Shown here in pieces: positions 2,539 through 16,671 of a DNA stretch of 64,000 nucleotides. The notes beneath the pieces were generated by a model that worked only from the letters and a program-made list of their open reading frames with translations, was not told the origin of the DNA and made no database searches. This DNA comes from Pseudanabaena sp. PCC 6802 (lineage in GTDB: Bacteria > Cyanobacteriota > Cyanobacteriia > Pseudanabaenales > Pseudanabaenaceae). Location: assembly GCF_000332175.1 (NCBI RefSeq), contig NZ_KB235914.1, positions 813,966 to 877,965 of the forward strand, in the 5' to 3' direction. The translations under genes and the position numbers were made by a program. Each line of letters opens with the position of its first letter. The stretch's first letter is position 1.

Positions 2539-3690
2539 TCAGATTTGAAAGATAGTCAGAAGAGGTATTTGCCCTTCCAACTGACAATTCATCCCCGGAC
2601 GTTCGGGTTGGCTTACAAAACTCAACCCCAAAGCAGCAATATTCATCGCCGCGTTCACATCAGCATCATGTTCAAACCCACAATACCCACACTTGAATTT
2701 CTTGACACTGCGATAACTTTTTCCCTTGATGGGGTGAATGTGACCGCATCGGTTGCAAGTTTGAGACGTGTAGCCAGGTGGGACAAAAACAACAGACACA
2801 CCTGCAATAGCAGCTTTGTATTGCACAAAAATTCTGAGCTGATGAAACGCCCAATTGTTTGTACGTCTACGTTCCGTCTTATTGCGAGGTTTTTCGTTGA
2901 GACTTTGACGAATATTTGTCAAATCCTCAAAAACCAACGCTGCGCCAGATTGTTTTGCTACTTGAACTAATTCTTTGCTGATGTTGTGATTCAACCACTT
3001 TTGATAGCGTTGTTCTCTCCCAGAGAGCCTTCTCAACAATCTTCTAGAATTGCGAGTGCGTTTGGATTGAACTCCCGCTCTGACTCGACTAAATCGGTCG
3101 CGAACTGTTTGAATCTGCTCGCCACTCCAGCTTTTATTGGTACTGGTAGTTGCGATATCTCTGCGTCCGAGATCGACTCCAATCACTTTTGGGGTTTTCC
3201 CCGTAGGTGGCGTGTCAATCTCGACTACAAAGTTGATGTAGTAATCACCCTGTCTGGTTTTGTTCAGTGTTGCGCTTGTGATTTTCTGTCCTCGCAGCAA
3301 CGCAATTTGATAGCCACCTATTGCGAGTTTAAAACGATGGCGTTTCGTCAAAGTGATACCGACTTCTTGGGTTTCTTCCCAATAGCGAAAGGTTCGTTCG
3401 TTAAGGCTAATCGAAGTAGGACGGAATTTGTGAATCTGTTTTACGGCTTTCACGTTCCCGACAACACGACGAATTGCCATGCAAACATGGTTAGAACCCA
3501 AACCAGTAGACGCTCTGACTGTTTTGTAGGCCAGATGGTGCAATTTGGTTGTATTCCATTGTTTGAATCCCTGCCCAATTTTCAATATCTGATTACACGC
3601 ATCCGCGAATCCTTGAAGTGTTGCGTCAATTTCAGTCCGCAACTCTTTAGAGACTATAAGCCTGCATTTAACTGATAGTAACTGAGTCAT
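2539..3690 (-). CDS. tnpB: TnpB RNA-guided nuclease of an IS200/IS605-type element
   Basis: The product of 383 residues from the MTQLLSVKCRLI start (an in-frame ATG six codons upstream at 3708 is also possible) has the TnpB layout: a helical N-terminus, then a split RuvC domain. The acidic triad looks intact: D173 in GVDLGRRD, E255 in VFEDL and D344 in HDADVNAA. A C4 zinc finger (CNRCG, CGYCG) lies between the last two. TnpB proteins are guided by an omega-RNA transcribed from the element's 3' end and cut DNA at sites next to a short target motif. No tnpA is present here. The gene lies directly upstream of dnaK and ends 83 bp before it. Nothing suggests decay. Confidence 0.93.
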   Translation of the reverse strand: MTQLLSVKCRLIVSKELRTEIDATLQGFADACNQILKIGQGFKQWNTTKLHHLAYKTVRASTGLGSNHVCMAIRRVVGNVKAVKQIHKFRPTSISLNERTFRYWEETQEVGITLTKRHRFKLAIGGYQIALLRGQKITSATLNKTRQGDYYINFVVEIDTPPTGKTPKVIGVDLGRRDIATTSTNKSWSGEQIQTVRDRFSRVRAGVQSKRTRNSRRLLRRLSGREQRYQKWLNHNISKELVQVAKQSGAALVFEDLTNIRQSLNEKPRNKTERRRTNNWAFHQLRIFVQYKAAIAGVSVVFVPPGYTSQTCNRCGHIHPIKGKSYRSVKKFKCGYCGFEHDADVNAAMNIAALGLSFVSQPERPGMNCQLEGQIPLLTIFQI

Positions 3691-3728
3691 AGATACATAA
3701 TAGTGCATCCAGAAAAGAATATCAATAG

Positions 3729-3906: not shown

Positions 3907-4352
3907 TAGACCTCTTGCACATTAGGCTTAGAGTGCTTGACTAGCAAGCGTTTCTAGCAGTAATGGTTGCCAACAGGTATGAAATCAGGAAACATCAGGA
4001 CAGCAAAATTAAACAACAAAAATGTCCTGACGATGAACTCTAAGATAGCGCAAAACCTCTCAACCGCAAAGTTCAAACGACGCTTTGGGGTGCAACACAG
4101 CACGTTTAAACAAATGCTGAAAGCCCTAAAACCATATTGGCAACCAGAGCTAAGCCAGGTGCTAGCCCGAAATTGCAGCTAGAAGAACGAATTTTGGTGG
4201 CCTTGGAGTATTGGCGAGAATATCGTAATTCTCTCTGGCCGTTATCGCAATCGCCGTCGTCGCTATGGCTTGCGCTGCAATTTAATTGCCGCTTTGTACA
4301 ACTATGAACTGTCTCTGGCTGCTTGATTTAAAATTAATGTGCAAGAGGTCTA
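3907..4352. mobile_element. Internally deleted IS5-like element with perfect terminal repeats
   Basis: The ends are 18-bp perfect inverted repeats, TAGACCTCTTGCACATTA (3907-3924) and its complement (4335-4352). The outermost TA may be a target duplication, as IS5-group elements often duplicate short TA-containing sites. Inside are the beginning and end of a DDE transposase gene; the catalytic middle is gone. At 446 bp it is too short to be autonomous, but with intact ends it could be moved by a full-length relative, in the manner of a MITE. Confidence 0.85.
3967..4325 (+). pseudogene. IS5-family transposase remnant (middle deleted)
   Basis: The first frame gives an N-terminal helix-turn-helix-type start (KFKRRFGVQHSTFKQMLKAL). 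A shift near 4140 moves to the frame reading KLQLEERILVALEYWREYRN, typical of IS5-group transposases. A junction near 4229-4236 then jumps to the C-terminal end, RYRNRRRRYGLRCNLIAALY, closing at TGA about 4325. The DDE catalytic region that should lie between is absent. It is therefore a double-damaged remnant and not an expressed enzyme. Confidence 0.8.
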
Positions 4353-4388: not shown

Positions 4389-5129
4389 TCAACGATCGCC
4401 CATTGCAGATGCGGTGATATCGATGCCAATATCGCCAACAAACGAAAAAGTTCTCACAAAATCGAAAATCTGACGTATCTCCTTGAGTTTGATGTCGTAG
4501 GGCGCGATCAATTTTCCAACGTCATGCTGGAGTTTTTGGATATCTTGAGCGAGATATATGTCTGGATTGCGCTTTTCACGATCTAGATAGCGATTGAAGA
4601 CGTTACTGAGGGTTTCATTATCTTTTTCTGTTTGATGTCGGCTTTCTTCGTAGTAAGAGCCGATTTCTTGTAGGATGCCGCGCATGAGGTCGGGGTAGCG
4701 GCTGGAAAAAACGAGAAGGGATAGGATCGCTTGCTGTTCTTTTGGTGTGGGTCGATGTCCACGGGTGCGACTGAGGACTTTGTAGAGTTTATAGACGTTG
4801 GTGAGGCGTTTGAGGCTGCGGGGTGAGAGTTCGGCTTCTTGGCAGCAGGCGACGAGGCGGTTGAATTCTTGGGGGGAGAATTCGTTGAATTTAGTGCCGC
4901 TGGTTCCGCCGTCTTGGACGACGGTTTGGGCGCGGAGGTAGGTGCGGAGGGCATCTTCGGCGATCGGGCGGACGCGGTAGGGGATTTGGATGATTTTCTC
5001 GAGGTAGTCGGCGGCGGAGGGGCTACCTTGGAGGGAAAGAACGCCTTTGTAGTGTTGGGCTAAGGCGCGGTTGATGTAGCGCTCGTCGATGGCGAGGACG
5101 GCGATGAAGAGGGGGTTTTTGACCAGGAG
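4389..5129 (-). pseudogene. C-terminal remainder of the KAP NTPase after the in-frame stop
   Basis: This stretch continues the frame of the large KAP gene (5130-10898) without any further stop until 4389. It reads LLVKNPLFIAVLAIDERYIN just after the TAA, the expected continuation of the helix and strand after Walker B in KAP NTPases (a sensor-like VLAID strand). Further on are ELSPRSLKRLTNVYKLYKVL and a helical C-terminus. The first in-frame ATG is at 4685, so only a 98-residue piece could be re-initiated. With the TAA read as an amino acid the whole gene would have 2169 codons. Confidence 0.8.
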
Positions 5130-8100
5130 TTAGACGGCTTCGAGGACTTCGACGACGGTATTGGGGGGACAGCGATCGAGGTCGTCGATGTAGACGACAA
5201 CACGGGCTGGCCCTCTGGGAAATATCTGCTTCAGCTTGTCTAACTTTGTCTTAAACTCAGTGGCATTTGTTGGTGGTAAAAGACTGCTGCTCAACTTCCA
5301 GAGGTCGTCTTTGAACTGGTGCATTAACCCCAGGTGTTTGCTGTAGTCGCCGTCTTTCAGTCGAGAGTTGACAAAGTCAATTAGGGAGGAGTAATCGGCT
5401 GTCAATCCAACCTCTCGTCGCTGTTCTTCAACTAGGAGCTTAAGGGATGCTACTTCTTGGATGAGTCCCGCAACTTTATTCTGTTCCTGTTTAAGTAAGA
5501 CTTCACGCTTACTCTGAATCTCTGCTTGTTCTTTCTGAACTGAGGTGATGTAATTGGCCAGAGATTTGAGGATGGGGAGCAGAGCTGTGACGCTTGCAGT
5601 TATAGCAGCTAGAATCTGAATTGCCGATGGAACTTCTTTGGGGATTTCTTTAATCCACTGCGGTAAACTTTCAAACCAAATTAGAATATTTTGAATCAGT
5701 TGATTGAACCAATCTGCTATTCCAAACTTTCCTAGGAGTGCCTGAGTTGCTGGATCCAGCGTCAGTACTATCAACAGGGTCATTGTGAATAGAGCCAGTA
5801 GTCCTTGCCAACTCGTAATCGCCTGACGCAGCATCGTGTAAGTTTTACCTGCTTCCGTAAACTCTTTAATTTTTTCATCGGAAAAGTGTAGCTTGGCTAC
5901 GGCATTAATAATAGGCTTCCAGAATGCCGTAACAGATCGTTGAGCAAGTCGCTGATTTACATCTTCTTCAGCTTTTTTTCGCTGGCGCTGAAGCTCTTTT
6001 TCTTTTGTTTCTAAAATTTGCTCTTTTTGCTTAAAAATCTGCTTTTCTTCTCGTTTTACTCGATCGAGTAAATCCCAAAGAGAATTAGAGATTTCAGTCT
6101 TTGAAGCTGATTCTTTCCAGTCTTTGAATTGGCTGGGTTTCAGGTTGGACTGAAGGAAAGCAGTTCGCTCTTCTTCATCCATTAGGTAAAGTGCTTGCCA
6201 TAATTTGCCGCCCTCTCGCAAGGCTTTGCTAAAGGCTTTTGAGCTTATGTTAGAGCTAGAATCAGGAGATATTAAATCTTCAGTAGTTACTGGCTTATAA
6301 TCAGATTCCATGCTAATTGTATTCCAATATCTCTGTCTATCACTTAAGCGTTTTTGGAATCCAACAAACATTAGAAAAACAATTCTGTTTAAAATGTTTT
6401 CTATTACTGAATTATAGGGAGCATTACTTCCTGAGTGATTGAGAGAGTAATCTTGAAAGTAGTAATTTTTGATTTGACTCGAAAATAGTGCTTCAAATAG
6501 TAATTCCCCATCTTTTAATTTGCATAGAAAAGAAGCAAAAAGATTGAGGGAAAGACGTATTATTTTCCTGTTTTTTAATCTATATAAAAGAGAATCAAAA
6601 AGATTGAGAGCAGGGCGTATTATTTTATGATAAAAGTAATCGTTGTTTTTTTCAATCATCCAGAAAAGAACAATCCTCTTTGCCAAAATAATCAGTGCAA
6701 TGATAACCTTAATTAAAAATTCCAGGGAAAACAAAGCGAATACAATAATATGCAGAATAAACTGGACTATGACGAGATTCAAAAAATTTTGGAAAAAATC
6801 AGTAAATTTTTTATTGATTTTTTCGCAATACTTATAGAAATCTTGTCGGTTTTTCCGGATTTTTTTTCTTATAGTTAGAAGGGGGTTGTAGATAAATTGA
6901 TCGAGATAGCGATCAGATCGCTGTTTCGATGAAGCATTATCTGGCACTGTTTCCCGATCTGATGACCGATCGAAGTTGCTGAGGATATGTCCTAGTTTTT
7001 GTTCTAAACTGATTTGACGATTCAACTCATAGAATATTTCCTGCATGAGGCTTGCCCAGAGGTTAGCTTTGGCATAAGTCCAGGCATCAAATTTGATTTG
7101 GTAAATGTGACCGACAAATCGACCTACCCGATCGCCGTCAGGACTTTTACTGTCAGCATCTTTAAGCCCCCAGGCTTCGATCGCTTCCATACCTTGACTG
7201 CGGATCTCGACCATGTGGCTCTGCATCAGGTGCATGATGTAGGATTTGCCACCGCCCCACCCGCCCAGAATGCCGACAGCAACGGGAGGTTCAAGGTCTC
7301 GCATCAGGAGCATTTCGGTGAGAGCGTTGATTTCGTCTTTGAGGTTGAGCAGGTCTTCGTCTTGGGTGGCATCGTTGCGGAGGCTACCCGTTTTGAGGGC
7401 TTGGCGATATTCGTTTCGCAGGACAAAAAGAGAACGCTCCCAAAGGTCTTGAGGGGCTTTACCGATGCTGGCTTCGCGATCGATTTCTCGAACGAGGCGA
7501 ATGGGGAGATTAGGTTTGAGGGCGATCAGGATACGACGGCGTTTGTAGGTATTGGGATCGGGTTCTTTGGGGTCTTCTTTGAACTGATTTTGGTCTGCCC
7601 ATTCTTTAACGGCTTTGAGGAGAGTGGGAATTTGTTCGGGAACAATGGTGGCAAATTGGCTTAGGAGTTCAATGTATGGTACTAAATATTGTTCTAGATT
7701 AGGTTGAGGAATAATAAATGGATCATCCGGTTGAAAGAGTCGATATTCATCCATCTGATAGGGTGAATATATCTTAACTTTTTCAATCTGGCGTTGGACT
7801 TCTAAACGGATTTCGGGAAAGTAGATGGCGATGGCTAGGAGCGCCCGGACTTGATGGTAGCGATCTTGCAGTTCTAGGGCAATACTTTGGGCTTCGAGGA
7901 TATGTTGCGGGAGTAAATGCGGTGCAAGTTTAACTAAGGAGTTGGCTTTTTTAGCTTCATGAGTCTGTGACATTTCACGAATTAGCTGCAAAGCTCTAAA
8001 TTGGTCGGTCACAAGTTGGTCATTGTCTACAGGGCTTAATTCCTTGGGTTGGGGACGGGTAGCTAGAATTATGGCTATATCTGTTTTTTGGATTGAATTA

Positions 8101-10898
8101 GTTTGGTCTTTGAACTGTGCGATGATGCTGTCATGTACATGCAGTTCTGGATAGAGAGGGATGAAGGCACTGAGAGCAGTAGCTTTGGGACGGGGACGAT
8201 CCTGACAGAGGGCTTTAGCCTGTTGGTAAAAAGGGGACAATTGCTCCGGGGTAAGGTGGGGTGAGGTGGCAAGGGCAGCGAGAACTTGGGACAGGTAAAA
8301 TTCTGACTTCAGTTTTGGTAGTAGATTATCTTTGATGAACTTGAGGCGATCGTCACTGTCTAGGCTAGGAACTAGGACAGTGAGTACGTTAGTTATAGTT
8401 CTTTCAGCAGAAAGGTGCTGGTCAGTTTGATCGAGAATATGATCGATAAGTTCATCTTTCAGATTGGAGTCACTTGGTTCAGTCTCTATAAATGTAGGAA
8501 TACTGACTCGAATTGCCACCTGATGAAGTATTTGGGCGAGAAGTTCAGGGTAGGGGCAGCGTATTTCGGCAATTTCTAACGCTTTTTTGAGCTGCTCCGG
8601 AGATAGGTAGGGAATAAGATTACAAAGAGCTGTTGCGGGGTAGGAGTAGCCAGGAAGGTAGTTCTGAACTATATCGAGTGCTTCTGATAATCTTTCTGCG
8701 GGGAGATAAGGGGCTAGGTTACCAAGGACTTCCGCTTGGTAAGCAGGATGGGTGATTTTAGTTTGAATCAGTTGCAATACTCTGGGAAATAGTCCTGCCG
8801 AAAGACGGGGGGCTAAGGCACTCAGCAGTTTGGCTCTATCGGCAGAGCTTTCGCCCCTAGGAACAATTTCCAGGACTGAGGAGAGTAGTGTTGGAGGGCA
8901 ACAGAGAATCAGGAACTCGGTGGATTGAAAGGCGATTGTAGTCAATACATTAATCCGATTTTCTACACTTTTCAACTCTAAAGCAATCTGTATTATTTTT
9001 TGTTGTATTTGAGTTGAGAAATTGCAGCTTTTGTCACATACTACTTTTAATATTTTTACCTTTCTGGACTCATTATTAATGAACAACATAGAATTCAGGA
9101 ATTCTTGCAATAATTGAGTTTCGAAAATAGGAATTTTAGCACCAATTTCTTCAAGAATTTCACTTCGATCATTTTCATCTTGAATACTGGAAGTAATCCT
9201 TAGAGCTTGCTTTAAAATCTGAGTTTCAGAACAGGGGATTTCGGCGATGGCACTTTGCAAGAGATATACCGGGTTATCCATCGATGAAGAGGCTCTTAAC
9301 TTTATTTCCTTGTACACAAAAAATGCCAACTCTAATCCCTGTTGAAATACGAATTGGGATTGAGGAGAAGGTAGTTGAGCAGCAACTGATACCAGAGCAA
9401 AGGTCTTGTAAATTGGATTCTTAATAGTTGAAGCCAGCTTTAGTGCTTGTTTGAGTACTCGTTGACGTTTGGATGGAGGAAGTTTGGCGGCAATTGCACC
9501 TAGCGCAATGGCTTTATGGTGATTAAAATCATAAGGCGCGGCTGCTTTCAGAGCTTTTTTTAGCAATTTAGGTTTGGTGGGAGGGATGTAGCTGACAACT
9601 AAAGCTAGTAATCTTAATCTATCGGAGAATCTATCGGAGGAAGACTCAATAGATAAAACGACTTCAAGAGCTTTTTCTAGTAGTTCTTCAGACTCTAGCA
9701 GAGAAATTTTTTTCGTAATTGCCGCTATTATTTCTACTTGATTATTTTTGTATGACTTTCTGTGATTGACTATGTATTTTTTGGCGGCATTTAGCGCTCT
9801 TATTAACCATTCAGTCTTAGGCGAAAGGTGGGCAAGGATGACTGCTATAAAAAGAGAATCATCACACCGAATCAACAAGTCTTCAAATATTTCTAGTTCG
9901 AGTTCAAAGGGTGGAATTACTGACAGAAAATCCTTAAAATACAAGCCTTCACCATAAGGATTTTGAGAAGGATATATTTCTATGATTTCTATTATCTGCT
10001 TTAGAATATCTCCGCATTGCGAGGGATGATATTTTTGGGCAATATATGACAAAAATTCCAATTTTCTTCTCGTATCAGAAGAGCAAGCACTTAACTCTTT
10101 ATCAATTACTTTCTGTCGTAGGTTAGATTTGGAGGAATGAATATTGTCTAGGAGAATTCTGGAAAACCAACTGTTAGTAAACTCCCATGAGATCATTTTT
10201 TGAAACAGGGAGTCACGTCCCGAGTAAGGTAATTTGGCAGCCACCGCAGCAAATACTTCACTGCGCATTTCCTCATACGGAATAACTTGCGTGGACTCTA
10301 GTACTTGTTGGAGCAGTTGGGGTTCCGAAGCAGAAAACTGGGCTATTACCTTAGTAAGTGCTGTACTTCGACTCCCCTCCAAAATGATTTGCGCTGTATC
10401 CAGTGCTTGTTGGAGTATAGGTTTGCGTTCCTCTGAGGGAAATTGGGCAGCCACAGCAGTCAATGCTAGACTTCGGCAATACTCATGCTGAAGCATTTGC
10501 GCAGTATTCAATGCTTGTTGGAGTAGTTGAGGTTCTGAAGCGGTCAGTCGAGCAACCACGGCGAAGAACGCTCTTGGTCTGTCCAATTGGGCTTCTGCGG
10601 CGTCCATTTCTTGCTGAATCCTAACCCTATCCTCATCACTAAGCGGTGACAGTTCTACCCTCACCTCTTCTTGAACAGATTTTTCCCCCTCACTACTAAC
10701 CTCTTCCTTCGACCAGAACTCCTCTGGTAGCCCCTGCCCTGGCAACTCCGCCAGCACCTCCCGCACTACCCACTCACTACCCGTCAGGTTTAGCCCCTTA
10801 ATCTTCTCCAGCCATGCGATCAAATCTTGCACCCAAATGGGCTGATCTTCTGAATTTGCTGTCACCGTCTCTCTATCTGCCACAAACAACCTCACCAC
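5130..10898 (-). CDS. Giant HEAT-like-repeat/KAP P-loop NTPase, truncated by an in-frame TAA
   Basis: The product has 1922 residues from a GTG start (10898; no ATG occurs until about residue 95). Residues ~100-1150 are repeated helical pairs such as LLQQALNTAQ...ALTAVAAQFP, resembling HEAT-type solenoids. The KAP domain follows: Walker A GGWGGGKS at ~1211-1219, hydrophobic segments near ~1385-1435, coiled coil (EKELQRQRKKAEED), more membrane segments near ~1690-1790, and Walker B VVVYIDDLDR at ~1901-1912. Membrane helices between Walker A and B are a KAP family hallmark, so it should be an inner-membrane ATPase. Translation stops at TAA 5130-5132, ten codons past Walker B, while homologous sequence continues in the same frame. 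KAP proteins include PifA, which excludes phage T7, so a defence role is possible but unproven. VapBC lies divergently 146 bp away. Confidence 0.85.
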   Translation of the reverse strand: MVRLFVADRETVTANSEDQPIWVQDLIAWLEKIKGLNLTGSEWVVREVLAELPGQGLPEEFWSKEEVSSEGEKSVQEEVRVELSPLSDEDRVRIQQEMDAAEAQLDRPRAFFAVVARLTASEPQLLQQALNTAQMLQHEYCRSLALTAVAAQFPSEERKPILQQALDTAQIILEGSRSTALTKVIAQFSASEPQLLQQVLESTQVIPYEEMRSEVFAAVAAKLPYSGRDSLFQKMISWEFTNSWFSRILLDNIHSSKSNLRQKVIDKELSACSSDTRRKLEFLSYIAQKYHPSQCGDILKQIIEIIEIYPSQNPYGEGLYFKDFLSVIPPFELELEIFEDLLIRCDDSLFIAVILAHLSPKTEWLIRALNAAKKYIVNHRKSYKNNQVEIIAAITKKISLLESEELLEKALEVVLSIESSSDRFSDRLRLLALVVSYIPPTKPKLLKKALKAAAPYDFNHHKAIALGAIAAKLPPSKRQRVLKQALKLASTIKNPIYKTFALVSVAAQLPSPQSQFVFQQGLELAFFVYKEIKLRASSSMDNPVYLLQSAIAEIPCSETQILKQALRITSSIQDENDRSEILEEIGAKIPIFETQLLQEFLNSMLFINNESRKVKILKVVCDKSCNFSTQIQQKIIQIALELKSVENRINVLTTIAFQSTEFLILCCPPTLLSSVLEIVPRGESSADRAKLLSALAPRLSAGLFPRVLQLIQTKITHPAYQAEVLGNLAPYLPAERLSEALDIVQNYLPGYSYPATALCNLIPYLSPEQLKKALEIAEIRCPYPELLAQILHQVAIRVSIPTFIETEPSDSNLKDELIDHILDQTDQHLSAERTITNVLTVLVPSLDSDDRLKFIKDNLLPKLKSEFYLSQVLAALATSPHLTPEQLSPFYQQAKALCQDRPRPKATALSAFIPLYPELHVHDSIIAQFKDQTNSIQKTDIAIILATRPQPKELSPVDNDQLVTDQFRALQLIREMSQTHEAKKANSLVKLAPHLLPQHILEAQSIALELQDRYHQVRALLAIAIYFPEIRLEVQRQIEKVKIYSPYQMDEYRLFQPDDPFIIPQPNLEQYLVPYIELLSQFATIVPEQIPTLLKAVKEWADQNQFKEDPKEPDPNTYKRRRILIALKPNLPIRLVREIDREASIGKAPQDLWERSLFVLRNEYRQALKTGSLRNDATQDEDLLNLKDEINALTEMLLMRDLEPPVAVGILGGWGGGKSYIMHLMQSHMVEIRSQGMEAIEAWGLKDADSKSPDGDRVGRFVGHIYQIKFDAWTYAKANLWASLMQEIFYELNRQISLEQKLGHILSNFDRSSDRETVPDNASSKQRSDRYLDQFIYNPLLTIRKKIRKNRQDFYKYCEKINKKFTDFFQNFLNLVIVQFILHIIVFALFSLEFLIKVIIALIILAKRIVLFWMIEKNNDYFYHKIIRPALNLFDSLLYRLKNRKIIRLSLNLFASFLCKLKDGELLFEALFSSQIKNYYFQDYSLNHSGSNAPYNSVIENILNRIVFLMFVGFQKRLSDRQRYWNTISMESDYKPVTTEDLISPDSSSNISSKAFSKALREGGKLWQALYLMDEEERTAFLQSNLKPSQFKDWKESASKTEISNSLWDLLDRVKREEKQIFKQKEQILETKEKELQRQRKKAEEDVNQRLAQRSVTAFWKPIINAVAKLHFSDEKIKEFTEAGKTYTMLRQAITSWQGLLALFTMTLLIVLTLDPATQALLGKFGIADWFNQLIQNILIWFESLPQWIKEIPKEVPSAIQILAAITASVTALLPILKSLANYITSVQKEQAEIQSKREVLLKQEQNKVAGLIQEVASLKLLVEEQRREVGLTADYSSLIDFVNSRLKDGDYSKHLGLMHQFKDDLWKLSSSLLPPTNATEFKTKLDKLKQIFPRGPARVVVYIDDLDRCPPNTVVEVLEAV

Positions 10899-11791: not shown

Positions 11792-12424
11792 TTAGGCGGG
11801 TGCAGATTTCAGCTCGATGCTCCAGCTGCGCAATTTGCCAACATCAATTCTGGCGCGATCCGCAACATTCAAAGTCCAAATACCCATCATGGGTTGTCCC
11901 ACCATACCGCCAAGAACACCCGACACCGCTGAATCGTAAGTCGCGACTAGATTGTCAGTGGAGCCACCAAGTTGTGGATGAAGAACAGTGCTCCGACCCG
12001 CAGGCGAAGTCAGTGTGACCCGCAGGTCGCCGATGTAGGTATGCTGAATATCGACATTCACCTTGATCTGGGCCACCGTGCCGGATTGCGCGATGACGAT
12101 TGTGCTCGAAATGCCTGCTGTCGTATTATCGGGAATGGAAGCCATCGGGTTGGCCTGACCGGAAGCGACCAGAGCGGCTGGCGCGGAACCTATCTTGAAC
12201 GCCATAGTGTCACCCGGTGCTGCAATATCGGATATCACAAGCCCCGAATCGCGGCCATCCCATTCCCTCGAATTGGGCGAAGACGCAGCAGATAGGGCAA
12301 CGCCCTGGATTGTGGCGTAAAGGTCGTCACCGTCACCACGGTTCGCGTCCAGTTCCAGATCGCGGCGGCCGTCCGCTTGGAGCAAAGCGCATTGGTAGTG
12401 TTTTGCGGAGGTGCCCTGCTGCAA
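11792..12424 (-). pseudogene. C-terminal half of the M6 metalloprotease (P-domain), out of frame
   Basis: This 210-residue frame continues the protease gene at 12537-13751. It begins in the C-terminal part of the catalytic region (QQGTSAKHYQCALLQADGRR) and ends with a P/Homo B-like domain (DIQHTYIGDLRVTLTSPAG, GIWTLNVADRARIDVGKL), which assists folding or export in secreted proteases. The reading frame upstream of 12424 reaches LPASGLAVYHCDILGSNEL, which should follow MGLDRGL in the N-terminal piece. Removing 97 bp at 12475-12578 joins the two into one 620-residue ORF. It has no start of its own and is probably not made. Confidence 0.85.
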
Positions 12425-12474
12425 TTCGTTCGAACCCAGAATGTCGCAATGATAAACAGCAAGACCACTGGCTG

Positions 12475-12578
12475 GTAGTCCGAGAGTGTTCAGATTTTTG
12501 TGTAAATTGAGTCCTGAAGTACGTATTTACGCTGTTTCAGAGGCTCGATACACAAAATTCCGATCGCACCCGTAGTCC
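12475..12578. mobile_element. Short MITE-like insertion in the M6 protease gene
   Basis: GTAGTCC occurs at 12475-12481 and again at 12572-12578 and looks like a 7-bp target duplication. The 90 bp between have imperfect terminal inverted repeats, about 17 of 23 positions matching, including a perfect TTTTGTGTA (12496-12504) / TACACAAAA (12549-12557). Excision of 97 bp restores the protease frame exactly. No coding capacity. I found no second copy in this window. Confidence 0.75.
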
Positions 12579-13751
12579 ACGGTCAAGCCCCATCCTGGAA
12601 CGATTTTCAACCAAGAAGTATTCGTTCGGCTTAGACGTGCGGTATTTCAACACTGTGTTGTAGTCGCCCTGACGTGCCTGGTGGTTGGCAGCCGTTTTCA
12701 AATCAATTTCATTGTCGCACCATCCAGCAAGATCGCGCAGATAGGCGCAGACCGGCGAGGGGCTAAGTCCGTTGTCGTTGTGGTTCCCAGATCCCATGAG
12801 GCAATAGCTGCCGATGCCGGCGCTCTTGACACTGTCACCATCACGTTCGCCGTAGTCGTACATGTCTGGGAAACGGCAAAGGAGATGGCCATTCTCGTGG
12901 CAGAATGTGCCGATGCTGAGATCGGCAGGCGTGCGTCCGAGGCTTGTCAGGAGATAGAGATCGGTTCTCATAGTGCCAAAGCGCAGATCGATATGCCAGT
13001 TGTGCGGCCACAACTCGCCACGATACTGTGTTTGGCCGGCATACATGATGTTGAGGGCATCGATGATATTCTCATTGCGCGAATCGAATTGCTTGAGATT
13101 GAGACCGTCTGCGACGGCGAGTCGAAGCGCCTCTTCGACCAGCAAATTGTTGACATAGAATTCGCGGTTCCTACTGAGAGTGTACGGGCCAGCAACGAAA
13201 TTCGTGTATTTGAGTTTTCCGCTCGATACGCGATCGAAATATTCACGAGCCGAACAAATGTTGCCGTTGCGGTTGTAGTTCGCGCCGTTAAGCATCTCTT
13301 CTACGTCGGGGCGCGTAACGGTACTTGCGAGGTCTTGGAAATTCACCAGGATCGTTAAACCCTTGACCGTACCAATCGAGAGAACGCGACCCTCAAGCAG
13401 TCCCTGGTTTGGGCCTACGGTTCGCACTACTTCCGCCTCGCGTTGGCCTCCGGCCATCGCGGCGCGGCGCAACTTGCGAGCCCCGGCCCGTGCAACGATT
13501 GTTTCCTGCGATTCCTGTAGATGGCGCACCAATCCTTCGGGAACAGGTTCTGAAAGCGGTGTACCGGTCGAGCGGAAACTTCCGGCTGAGAGGCGGGCGT
13601 AGCAGAAAACGCCAAGCTCGTCGTCATAAATGGCCGAATACCCGTTCATATCCTCGTATCGTGCGTAATGCTCGTCGCCGAACACTTTGAGGGATATCTC
13701 TGGACCTTTCGACTGGCCGAATCTCAGGATTTCACCAAATATCGCGCTCAT
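12537..13751 (-). CDS. M6-family metalloprotease, N-terminal and catalytic part (gene disrupted)
   Basis: The 404-residue product has an N-terminal propeptide-like module (residues 1-80, EHYARYEDMNGYSAIYDDEL) and an M6/immune-inhibitor-A-type zinc protease domain. The zinc site is HENGH at residues 285-289, with the downstream FPDMYDYG and the SYCLMGSG turn typical of the family. The frame ends prematurely at 12537 inside an insertion, after LDRGLRVRSEF. The intact protein would have 620 residues and a C-terminal P-domain. No clear signal peptide is visible. The block 11.8-14.1 kb is visibly G+C-rich and I see no GCGATCGC in it, which suggests transfer from elsewhere. Confidence 0.85.
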   Translation of the reverse strand: MSAIFGEILRFGQSKGPEISLKVFGDEHYARYEDMNGYSAIYDDELGVFCYARLSAGSFRSTGTPLSEPVPEGLVRHLQESQETIVARAGARKLRRAAMAGGQREAEVVRTVGPNQGLLEGRVLSIGTVKGLTILVNFQDLASTVTRPDVEEMLNGANYNRNGNICSAREYFDRVSSGKLKYTNFVAGPYTLSRNREFYVNNLLVEEALRLAVADGLNLKQFDSRNENIIDALNIMYAGQTQYRGELWPHNWHIDLRFGTMRTDLYLLTSLGRTPADLSIGTFCHENGHLLCRFPDMYDYGERDGDSVKSAGIGSYCLMGSGNHNDNGLSPSPVCAYLRDLAGWCDNEIDLKTAANHQARQGDYNTVLKYRTSKPNEYFLVENRSRMGLDRGLRVRSEFCVSSL

Positions 13752-13767
13752 TTCATTACTCCTTATT

Positions 13768-14100
13768 TTATTTTGGCGTCGCCCCTGAACGCTGATCCAT
13801 TTGCTGCGTTCGTTCCTCGATTTTTCGTATTCTGACCTCGTCGGATTCAGTCGCGTGCCGCTCCACGCCAGGCGGTGGGGGCGATGTTACGGAAATGCCT
13901 GTTGTTTCAAATCTGCCTCCGACAACCCGGGCGTAGCAGAACAAACCCAGCGAGTCGTCGTAGATGGCTGGAAATCCCTCTGGCGTTTCATACGTTGCGT
14001 AAAATTCGGTGCCTCTGACGATCAGGTCGACATCTGAACCGTTAGCCTGTCCTAGAGAAGCCTTTTCGCCGAACACACCTACCATGCGACGGTCATTCAT
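13768..14100 (-). CDS. Stand-alone homologue of the M6 protease propeptide-like domain
   Basis: The 110-residue protein is clearly related to the first ~95 residues of the protease encoded just downstream. Matching segments are GEKASLGQANGSDVDLIVRG with GEILRFGQSKGPEISLKVFG, and FPAIYDDSLGLFCYARVVGG with YSAIYDDELGVFCYARLSAG. It ends in a charged helix (EVRIRKIEERTQQMDQR). It ends 16 bp before the protease start, in the same orientation, so the two were probably co-transcribed. It has no catalytic domain. A chaperone or inhibitor of the protease is an attractive inference; a truncated paralogue is the plain alternative. Confidence 0.7.
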   Translation of the reverse strand: MNDRRMVGVFGEKASLGQANGSDVDLIVRGTEFYATYETPEGFPAIYDDSLGLFCYARVVGGRFETTGISVTSPPPPGVERHATESDEVRIRKIEERTQQMDQRSGATPK

Positions 14101-14780: not shown

Positions 14781-15884
14781 ATGGACATGATGCAATCTAA
14801 GCTGGACATCAAGCTATTGGGATGTTTTGCCCTGACCTATGGAGATACCCCCATAGCGGAACTTTCCAGTGGGCGATCGCAAGCCTTATTGGCATATCTG
14901 GTCTTGCATCGCCAAACTGCCCAACCCCGCCAGCGCATCGCTTTTTCCCTGTGGCCGGAATCAACAGACGAGCAAGCCAGGGCGAATCTCCGCAAGGAGT
15001 TAAGTCGGTTGCGCCATGCTTTGCCAAACCCAGACGAATTCCTGCACGTAGATGCAAAAATGCTGCAATGGTTGCCCCATGGTAACTTTACGCTGGATGT
15101 GGCGGGGTTTGAAGCAACTGTGCGGGCGGCAGAGCAAGCCCCCGATCGCAATACCGCCCGCGATCGCTTAGAACAGGCGATCGCGCTATACCAGGGAGAC
15201 GTATTACCCGATCTCACAGATGAGTGGGTATTACCAGAGCGCGCGCGCTTGCAGCAAATGTACATGCAGGCACTAGAGCGACTGGTAAACCTGACGGAAG
15301 CACAACGCGACTACCGGGTGGCACTAACCCATGCCCAACAGATGTTACGAGTCGATCCGCTCAATGAAGCCGCCTATGTCAACTTAATGCGATTGTATGA
15401 GTTGCAGGGCGATCGCGCCAAAGCTTTGCAGGTCTACCATCAGTGCATGACCGTGTTGCGCGAAGAGCTGGGAGTCGATCCCAGCGTTGCCACGCGCAAG
15501 CTGTACGAACAGATCCTGATAGAAGAAGATGCACCCAAGCAGGTGGGCGTGACATCCCGCAGCAGCTTGTCCGTCCCTTCACCTTTACTGCCTTCGCGAT
15601 CGCTAGCATTATCCCCATTAATAGGACGCGAGTCAGAGTGGGCGTATATGCAGGAGTGGGCAGGCGCGATCCTGTCTGGGAAGAGCGGTGCGAATAGTGG
15701 CAGTACGTTTGCGGGTGCAGTATCCCAAGTACTATTGCTATTGGGAGAACCGGGAATTGGCAAAACGCGCTTGCTAGAGGAATTGCAAATACTAGCGCAG
15801 CAAGAGAGCGCTCTAGTAGTTTGGGGGCAAAGCTTTGCGGCGGAGATAATGCGCCCCTATGGCATCTGGATTGATGCATTTTAA
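14781..15884 (+). pseudogene. BTAD (SARP-like) transcriptional regulator, N-terminal part
   Basis: The 367 residues have a winged-helix OmpR-like DNA-binding domain (~10-105: SGRSQALLAYLVLHRQTAQP, LWPESTDEQARANLRKELSR), the bacterial transcriptional activation domain (~110-255) and the first part of an AAA/STAND ATPase with Walker A GEPGIGKT near 325. The frame then reads RPYGIWIDAF and stops, where homologues continue through several hundred more residues. The C-terminal TPR part follows in another frame (15859-16671). The gene therefore has a central deletion of the ATPase. The N-terminal piece alone could still bind DNA, but activity is doubtful. Confidence 0.8.
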
Positions 15885-16671
15885 CAGCCCGGTTACGTCA
15901 GCACAGATGCTGTCATACAGCGGCTCGCGTTTGGCGGAAATCGGGCGAGACATGGCACGGGCAGAAGCTTTGTTCCTGGAGGCACAGGCACAGGCAACGA
16001 GAGTAGGGTTGGAGCTTTGCGATATTTACAGCGGGTTGGGAATCGTACACCGTCACTACGGTCGCTATTCCGAAGCGCGATCGCTACTCCAGCAATCATT
16101 GCGACTAGTACGAGCAGAGCAAGACCATTGGCGCGAGTGTACGTACCTCAGCTATCTGGCGATGACGGAATTGGAAGGCGGCGATCCATTGGCAGCTTTG
16201 CCTTACTGCGATCGGATCTTGCTAGTTGCCGATAAAATCAAAGGTGAAGGGAGCGAGGCAGCGATTGCCAATGCACTGGCGGCGTTAGTTCGCTATCGGT
16301 TGCAGTATCCCAATGCGGCGGCGGAGTTAGCGCAGGCGATCGCCACTTTGCAACAAGTCGATGCCAAGCGCATTCTAGCTTATGCTCTGATTGGAGCAGC
16401 GGCAGTCGATCTGCAATGCGATCGCTTGGAATTGGCGGTACGTCGAGCTGAATCTGCCTTGGAGAACGCGCAAATCATCAATCATCCTGGTGAGATTGCC
16501 CTCGCATGGGCAATTCTGGTACAGGGATTGTTAGGATTAGGAGAAATAGAACGAGCGAAAGTACAATTTGCAGCAGGTTATCCAACTCTCGATCGCCAAA
16601 ATTTGAGCTTGCTTGCCCAAACCGCAGTCGATCGAGTACTAAACCAAATTCAAGATAGCAATACAGGATGA
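15859..16671 (+). pseudogene. TPR C-terminal part of the deleted BTAD regulator
   Basis: The 270-residue frame overlaps the previous one by 26 nt and encodes tetratricopeptide-like repeats (RAEALFLEAQAQATRVGLEL, GLGIVHRHYGRYSEARSLLQ, GEIALAWAILVQGLLGLGEI). These are typical of the C-terminal third of BTAD-ATPase-TPR regulators. The first ~15 residues derive from the other frame at the deletion junction near 15870-15890. It could be translated by termination-reinitiation at the overlap, but as a regulator it lacks both DNA-binding and ATPase parts. Best treated as the second half of a broken gene. Confidence 0.75.

Follow-up and report, generated by a model that had tools for sequence, protein, structure and literature searches.

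A long frame with one internal stop

The window, the whole 64,000-nucleotide stretch of Pseudanabaena sp. PCC 6802 DNA that was analysed, contains a minus-strand frame that runs from 10898 to 4389 and comprises 2169 codons with a single internal stop. An earlier note had described this frame and its one TAA at 5130-5132, and re-reading gave the same result. The gene and its parts, together with a neighbouring mobile element, are as follows.

4389..10898, minus strand: complete frame of the HEAT-like/KAP NTPase gene, now read as a pseudogene (2169 codons; GTG start assumed)
8289..10658, minus strand: modelled part of the N-terminal helical solenoid (HEAT-like), residues 81-870, from the predicted structure
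7242..7265, minus strand: Walker A, GGWGGGKS
5553..6797, minus strand: stretch of the Walker A-B interval with three strongly hydrophobic segments, 6797-6645, 5822-5730 and 5633-5553 (Kyte-Doolittle, above 1.8)
5172..5201, minus strand: Walker B, VVVYIDDLDR, residues 1900-1909
5130..5132, minus strand: in-frame TAA, codon 1923 of 2169, where relatives have glutamine (CAA/CAG)
5130..10898, minus strand: ORF translatable today, 1922 amino acids, with solenoid, Walker A, membrane segments and Walker B, and without the remaining NTPase domain
4389..5129, minus strand: remnant past the stop, 246 codons, with the remaining KAP domain and the C-terminal region
3907..4352, no strand assigned: IS element with an internal deletion, bounded by perfect 18-bp inverted ends and with a possible TA duplication, about 40 bp beyond the terminal stop of the gene

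The KAP family of P-loop NTPases is said to have been described by Aravind et al. in 2004. The window gene resembles its members (PF07693) in having a Walker A motif, a DDLDR Walker B motif and, between the two, hydrophobic membrane segments, the arrangement expected of KAP NTPases. The Pfam KAP_NTPase profile matches on both sides of the stop, covering profile positions 4-106 in the upstream 1922-residue part (E 3e-14) and 182-288 in the downstream 246-residue part (E 9e-13); the scores are 53.4 and 48.6 bits, where the cut-off is 20. Because of these matches on either side of the TAA, the sequence beyond it is a homologous continuation rather than a chance one, as the earlier note had proposed. 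That note placed the stop ten codons after Walker B; the count is 13.

Unlike usual KAP NTPases, the gene carries one nonsense codon and encodes an N-terminal stretch of about 1000 residues that is predicted to belong to the fold class of HEAT-like helical solenoids. The predicted structure of the N-terminal part (mean pLDDT 78, pTM 0.50) is a solenoid built of helices throughout. Its closest matches among solved structures are HEAT proteins such as CAND1, importin beta and PP2A PR65, with VIA Z about 16 over some 510 residues and Foldseek E down to 8e-8. Since helical repeats can reach VIA Z of about 13 through their common arrangement, a fold class is claimed here and no function. The predicted fold is shared with the HEAT solenoids at about 10% identity, and a Pfam HEAT match was absent from the three proteins searched, including the N-terminal part of the window protein. 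The designation HEAT thus holds for the predicted all-helical solenoid, with its resemblance to PP2A PR65 and importin beta, and lacks a Pfam match.

In NCBIfam and PADLOC the NTPase is nearest to QatA and PifA, and the KAP half has no sequence relatives in the PDB at E 0.1. QatA, the ATPase of the Qat anti-phage system, is the best relative in these collections, the likeness lying in the NTPase core. The score, however, is 37.4 bits against a cut-off of 600, and the window protein is much longer. Among the neighbours seen, which are PIN, TnpB and DnaK, no QatB, QatC or QatD is present, and a Qat system was rejected on both grounds.

Single-gene KAP-type phage exclusion or defence is found in Tmn and PifA, each of which is likewise a single KAP NTPase. 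Tmn, from E. coli, has been described as a KAP NTPase that carries two unusual transmembrane domains (PMC11846954). Tmn is not among the PADLOC matches listed for the window gene, and the match to PifA is weak. Neither protein is known to have a large N-terminal solenoid. From its likeness to other KAP ATPases, the intact window protein may plausibly have had an anti-phage or conflict role. No study of a HEAT-like/KAP subfamily in cyanobacteria was found in the literature.

The gene is an accessory one, patchily distributed and horizontally scattered among cyanobacteria, with KAP relatives at E 1e-20 in 31 of 388 cyanobacterial genomes. Gene neighbours differ from locus to locus among four relatives compared; with no neighbours shared, an operon partner or defence island was rejected. 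Only three plasmid records matched, weakly, and these were rhizobial or agrobacterial. The sole full relative elsewhere in the same genome is about 33% identical, which makes it an old paralogue and argues against a recent duplicate covering the loss.

Some 29 sites across the genome carry elements related to the IS at 3907-4352; these have nearly equal scores and are apparently near-uniform. Just beyond the pseudogene, at 2539-3708 on the minus strand, lies an intact-looking TnpB/OrfB of the IS605 kind with a Cas12f1-like TNB domain. Two nearby accessory genes look broken as well. An M6 peptidase-like gene at 11792-14100 (minus strand) appears to be interrupted near 12.5 kb (12.4-12.6 kb) by a short insertion or frameshift, and a truncated N-terminal paralogue of it occupies 13768-14100. 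At 14781-16671 on the plus strand, a BTAD/AAA regulator stops at 15884 within its AAA domain and is followed by a TPR ORF in another frame; this break looks like an internal deletion or frameshift.

The ancestral codon and the age of the lesion

Relatives were gathered from named genome contigs and from whole genomes, and the codon aligned to the TAA was read in each. It is CAA or CAG, both glutamine, in every relative spanning the site except the distant actinobacterial protein of Allorhizocola, which has AAC (asparagine). A change from CAA to TAA is a single transition, so the origin by one C-to-T change suggested in the earlier note agrees with the codons that relatives carry. None of the compared relatives has a stop at codon 1923, and the post-stop sequence is homologous throughout. 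Over this part Phormidium sp. FACHB-1136 is the nearest relative, at 75% identity, followed by Nostoc sp. FACHB-152 at 68%.

Evidence for the age of the lesion is provided by the rest of the frame. No second lesion was found anywhere in its 6.5 kb. A random substitution in the gene would yield a stop in about 4.6% of cases, and the lack of a second one therefore limits neutral divergence since the loss to less than about 0.012 substitutions per site (about 1.2%; 95% confidence).

The post-stop part is also conserved. Compared with Phormidium FACHB-1136 it has dN 0.17 and dS 1.33 (dN/dS about 0.13), similar to the KAP part before the membrane segments (dN 0.13, dS 1.02), although a dS near 1.3 approaches saturation and pairwise dN/dS alone cannot date the loss. 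Private amino-acid changes in the post-stop part number 11 in the window gene and 15 in Phormidium. Both measures cover the whole branch, so all they can show is that the gene still worked until recently.

Several relatives are interrupted as well. Phormidium sp. FACHB-1136, the closest relative, has a single in-frame TAG of its own (L020:9524), within SH*KW. In this strain a single 38-kb contig (G250:C208; L109, L110) bears two long HEAT-KAP genes, one intact with 2264 codons and the other with the single TAG. Another genome (G166) has one TAA (L071:2131) at a position where the window gene and Nostoc have glutamine, and Leptolyngbya sp. FACHB-321 has one TAG (L060:9665) where the window gene has glutamine. 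The fifth stop is found in a Xenococcus MAG (L052). Intact genes also exist: that of Nostoc sp. FACHB-152 (L021) is open for 2440 codons, and L104, L105 and L107-L109 are unbroken. Because the placed stops in relatives lie at different positions, they do not mark a conserved recoding site.

The best reading, and one held with high confidence, is that a genuine and very recent single-base change from CAA to TAA inactivated a KAP-family NTPase gene. Recent inactivation was one of three explanations offered in the earlier note, and the single lesion and conserved post-stop sequence support it well. The other two, bypass and sequencing error, fared worse: the former was contradicted on every point tested and the latter is unlikely.

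Error, bypass and split-gene readings

A sequencing or assembly error would mean that the strain really has CAA at this position and an intact gene. This would suit a lesion of one base in a frame that is otherwise perfect and conserved, and the comparison covers one genome of the genus. The assembly, however, comprises 5.62 Mb in 6 contigs and is 99.7% complete, and other KAP relatives are broken too. A measure of error can be taken from rpoC2, in which no in-frame stop occurs among the matches listed (the best approximately 150 of 1230 positions in 388 cyanobacterial genomes), a sample of best-scoring matches that leans towards intact genes. It puts error-made stops below about 2e-5 per codon, so that fewer than 0.04 would be expected in the KAP gene. 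An error is accordingly improbable.

Far less likely still is a stop that is bypassed, by recoding, a suppressor tRNA or a change of code, so that the full-length protein is made. The imprint of selection on the post-stop sequence would fit such a mechanism, but codon 1923 is not a stop in any compared relative, and the stops of relatives lie elsewhere. TAA is an ordinary stop here, ending 5 of 18 window genes checked, and no change of genetic code was found. RNA folding past the stop is no stronger than in shuffled sequences (z -0.7), with no notable stimulatory element. The tRNAs were located with the Rfam tRNA model, and about 70 were typed, including an array of 32 genes; none of these has an anticodon for TAA, TAG or TGA. 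For one gene of the array the anticodon call covers 2 bases only, and this gene is probably a pseudo-tRNA. Readthrough and a suppressor tRNA were rejected, since no typed tRNA reads a stop and the stop position is not conserved.

Long tRNA arrays are known in some cyanobacteria. The one found here, with 32 tRNAs (ARAGORN), lies on one strand within less than 6 kb (G000:C5:3842779-3848326; L144:1052-6827), in addition to some 40 scattered tRNAs. Pseudanabaena sp. PCC 6802 has been assigned 75 tRNAs (PMC5733544). Two tRNAs lie next to each other at G000:C1:199892-200158 (L146:393-521, 532-659), their anticodon loops being CTCATAA and CTCTTAA when read by eye. In each, about 50 additional bases follow the D-arm before the anticodon stem, and ARAGORN detects the pair only when it may assume introns.

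As hard to credit as a bypass is a gene split into two working subunits, or a truncated protein in a new role. The upstream ORF does retain everything from the solenoid through Walker A and the membrane segments to Walker B. Intact relatives, however, encode both halves as one protein, and the first in-frame ATG, GTG or TTG past the stop lies at 4685, leaving just 98 codons. The missing part of the NTPase thus cannot be made as a second protein, and a restart of the second half was rejected for this reason; the only early candidate start is a CTG at codon 2 past the stop. Because the rest of the NTPase domain is missing, the truncated product is most likely inactive, judging from its sequence.

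Nonsense losses in large defence genes

The recent inactivation can be compared with losses in other large defence genes, for example HsdR. In a set of 65 distinct KAP genes with 66,118 codons, 5 stops were counted. Among the HsdR matches listed for the same 388 cyanobacterial genomes, 6 of 150 genes carry one in-frame stop each; the combined length of the 150 was estimated from a mean of about 660 codons per gene. The HsdR rate predicts 4.0 stops in the KAP set against the 5 counted (P=0.37). Nonsense pseudogenes of the HsdR type show single in-frame stops in otherwise open frames at an equal rate per codon, and there is no essential difference between them and the gene described here.

An excess of stops in the KAP family was rejected as a sign of selection, the rate per codon not being above that of HsdR. 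The earlier note had suggested that a gene lost in this way was either costly or dispensable. Cost is possible, but as the rate per codon equals that of HsdR, no special selective cost is needed. The loss is ordinary for a large dispensable gene.

There is a slim chance that genes of the long HEAT-like/KAP subfamily are lost more often than their length alone would account for. Under this view the intact protein would be a defence protein that harms its own cell, and selection would act against it when phages no longer threaten, for instance over decades in culture. The nine full-length long genes contain three stops, in three different genes, against about 1.2 expected, which is not significant per codon (P=0.12); counted per gene, the long HEAT-like/KAP genes differ significantly from HsdR (Fisher P=0.009). 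Pseudanabaena sp. PCC 6802 has been in culture since 1968 (PMC12961181), and long culture would fit relaxed selection.

Under the favoured reading of a recent inactivation, the intact gene encoded a large single-protein KAP-family NTPase, with a HEAT-like solenoid (about residues 90-1150) followed by a P-loop NTPase in which membrane segments are inserted between Walker A and Walker B. One transition from CAA to TAA at glutamine 1923 would then have truncated the protein inside the NTPase fold, just past Walker B, so recently that the rest of the frame shows no decay. In relatives, such nonsense losses recur at differing sites, as often as would be expected of large defence genes that are dispensable.

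The protein is of a kind already known, and its relatives and other large defence genes suffer such losses too. What looked like a single-base anomaly is most probably a clean recent loss and not recoding. Large KAP ATPases, plausible defence proteins, gain independent nonsense lesions at the rate of restriction genes, and this rate is useful to annotators or defence-system surveys that meet split KAP genes. If loss in culture were true, caution would be due when defence repertoires are inferred from long-kept strains.
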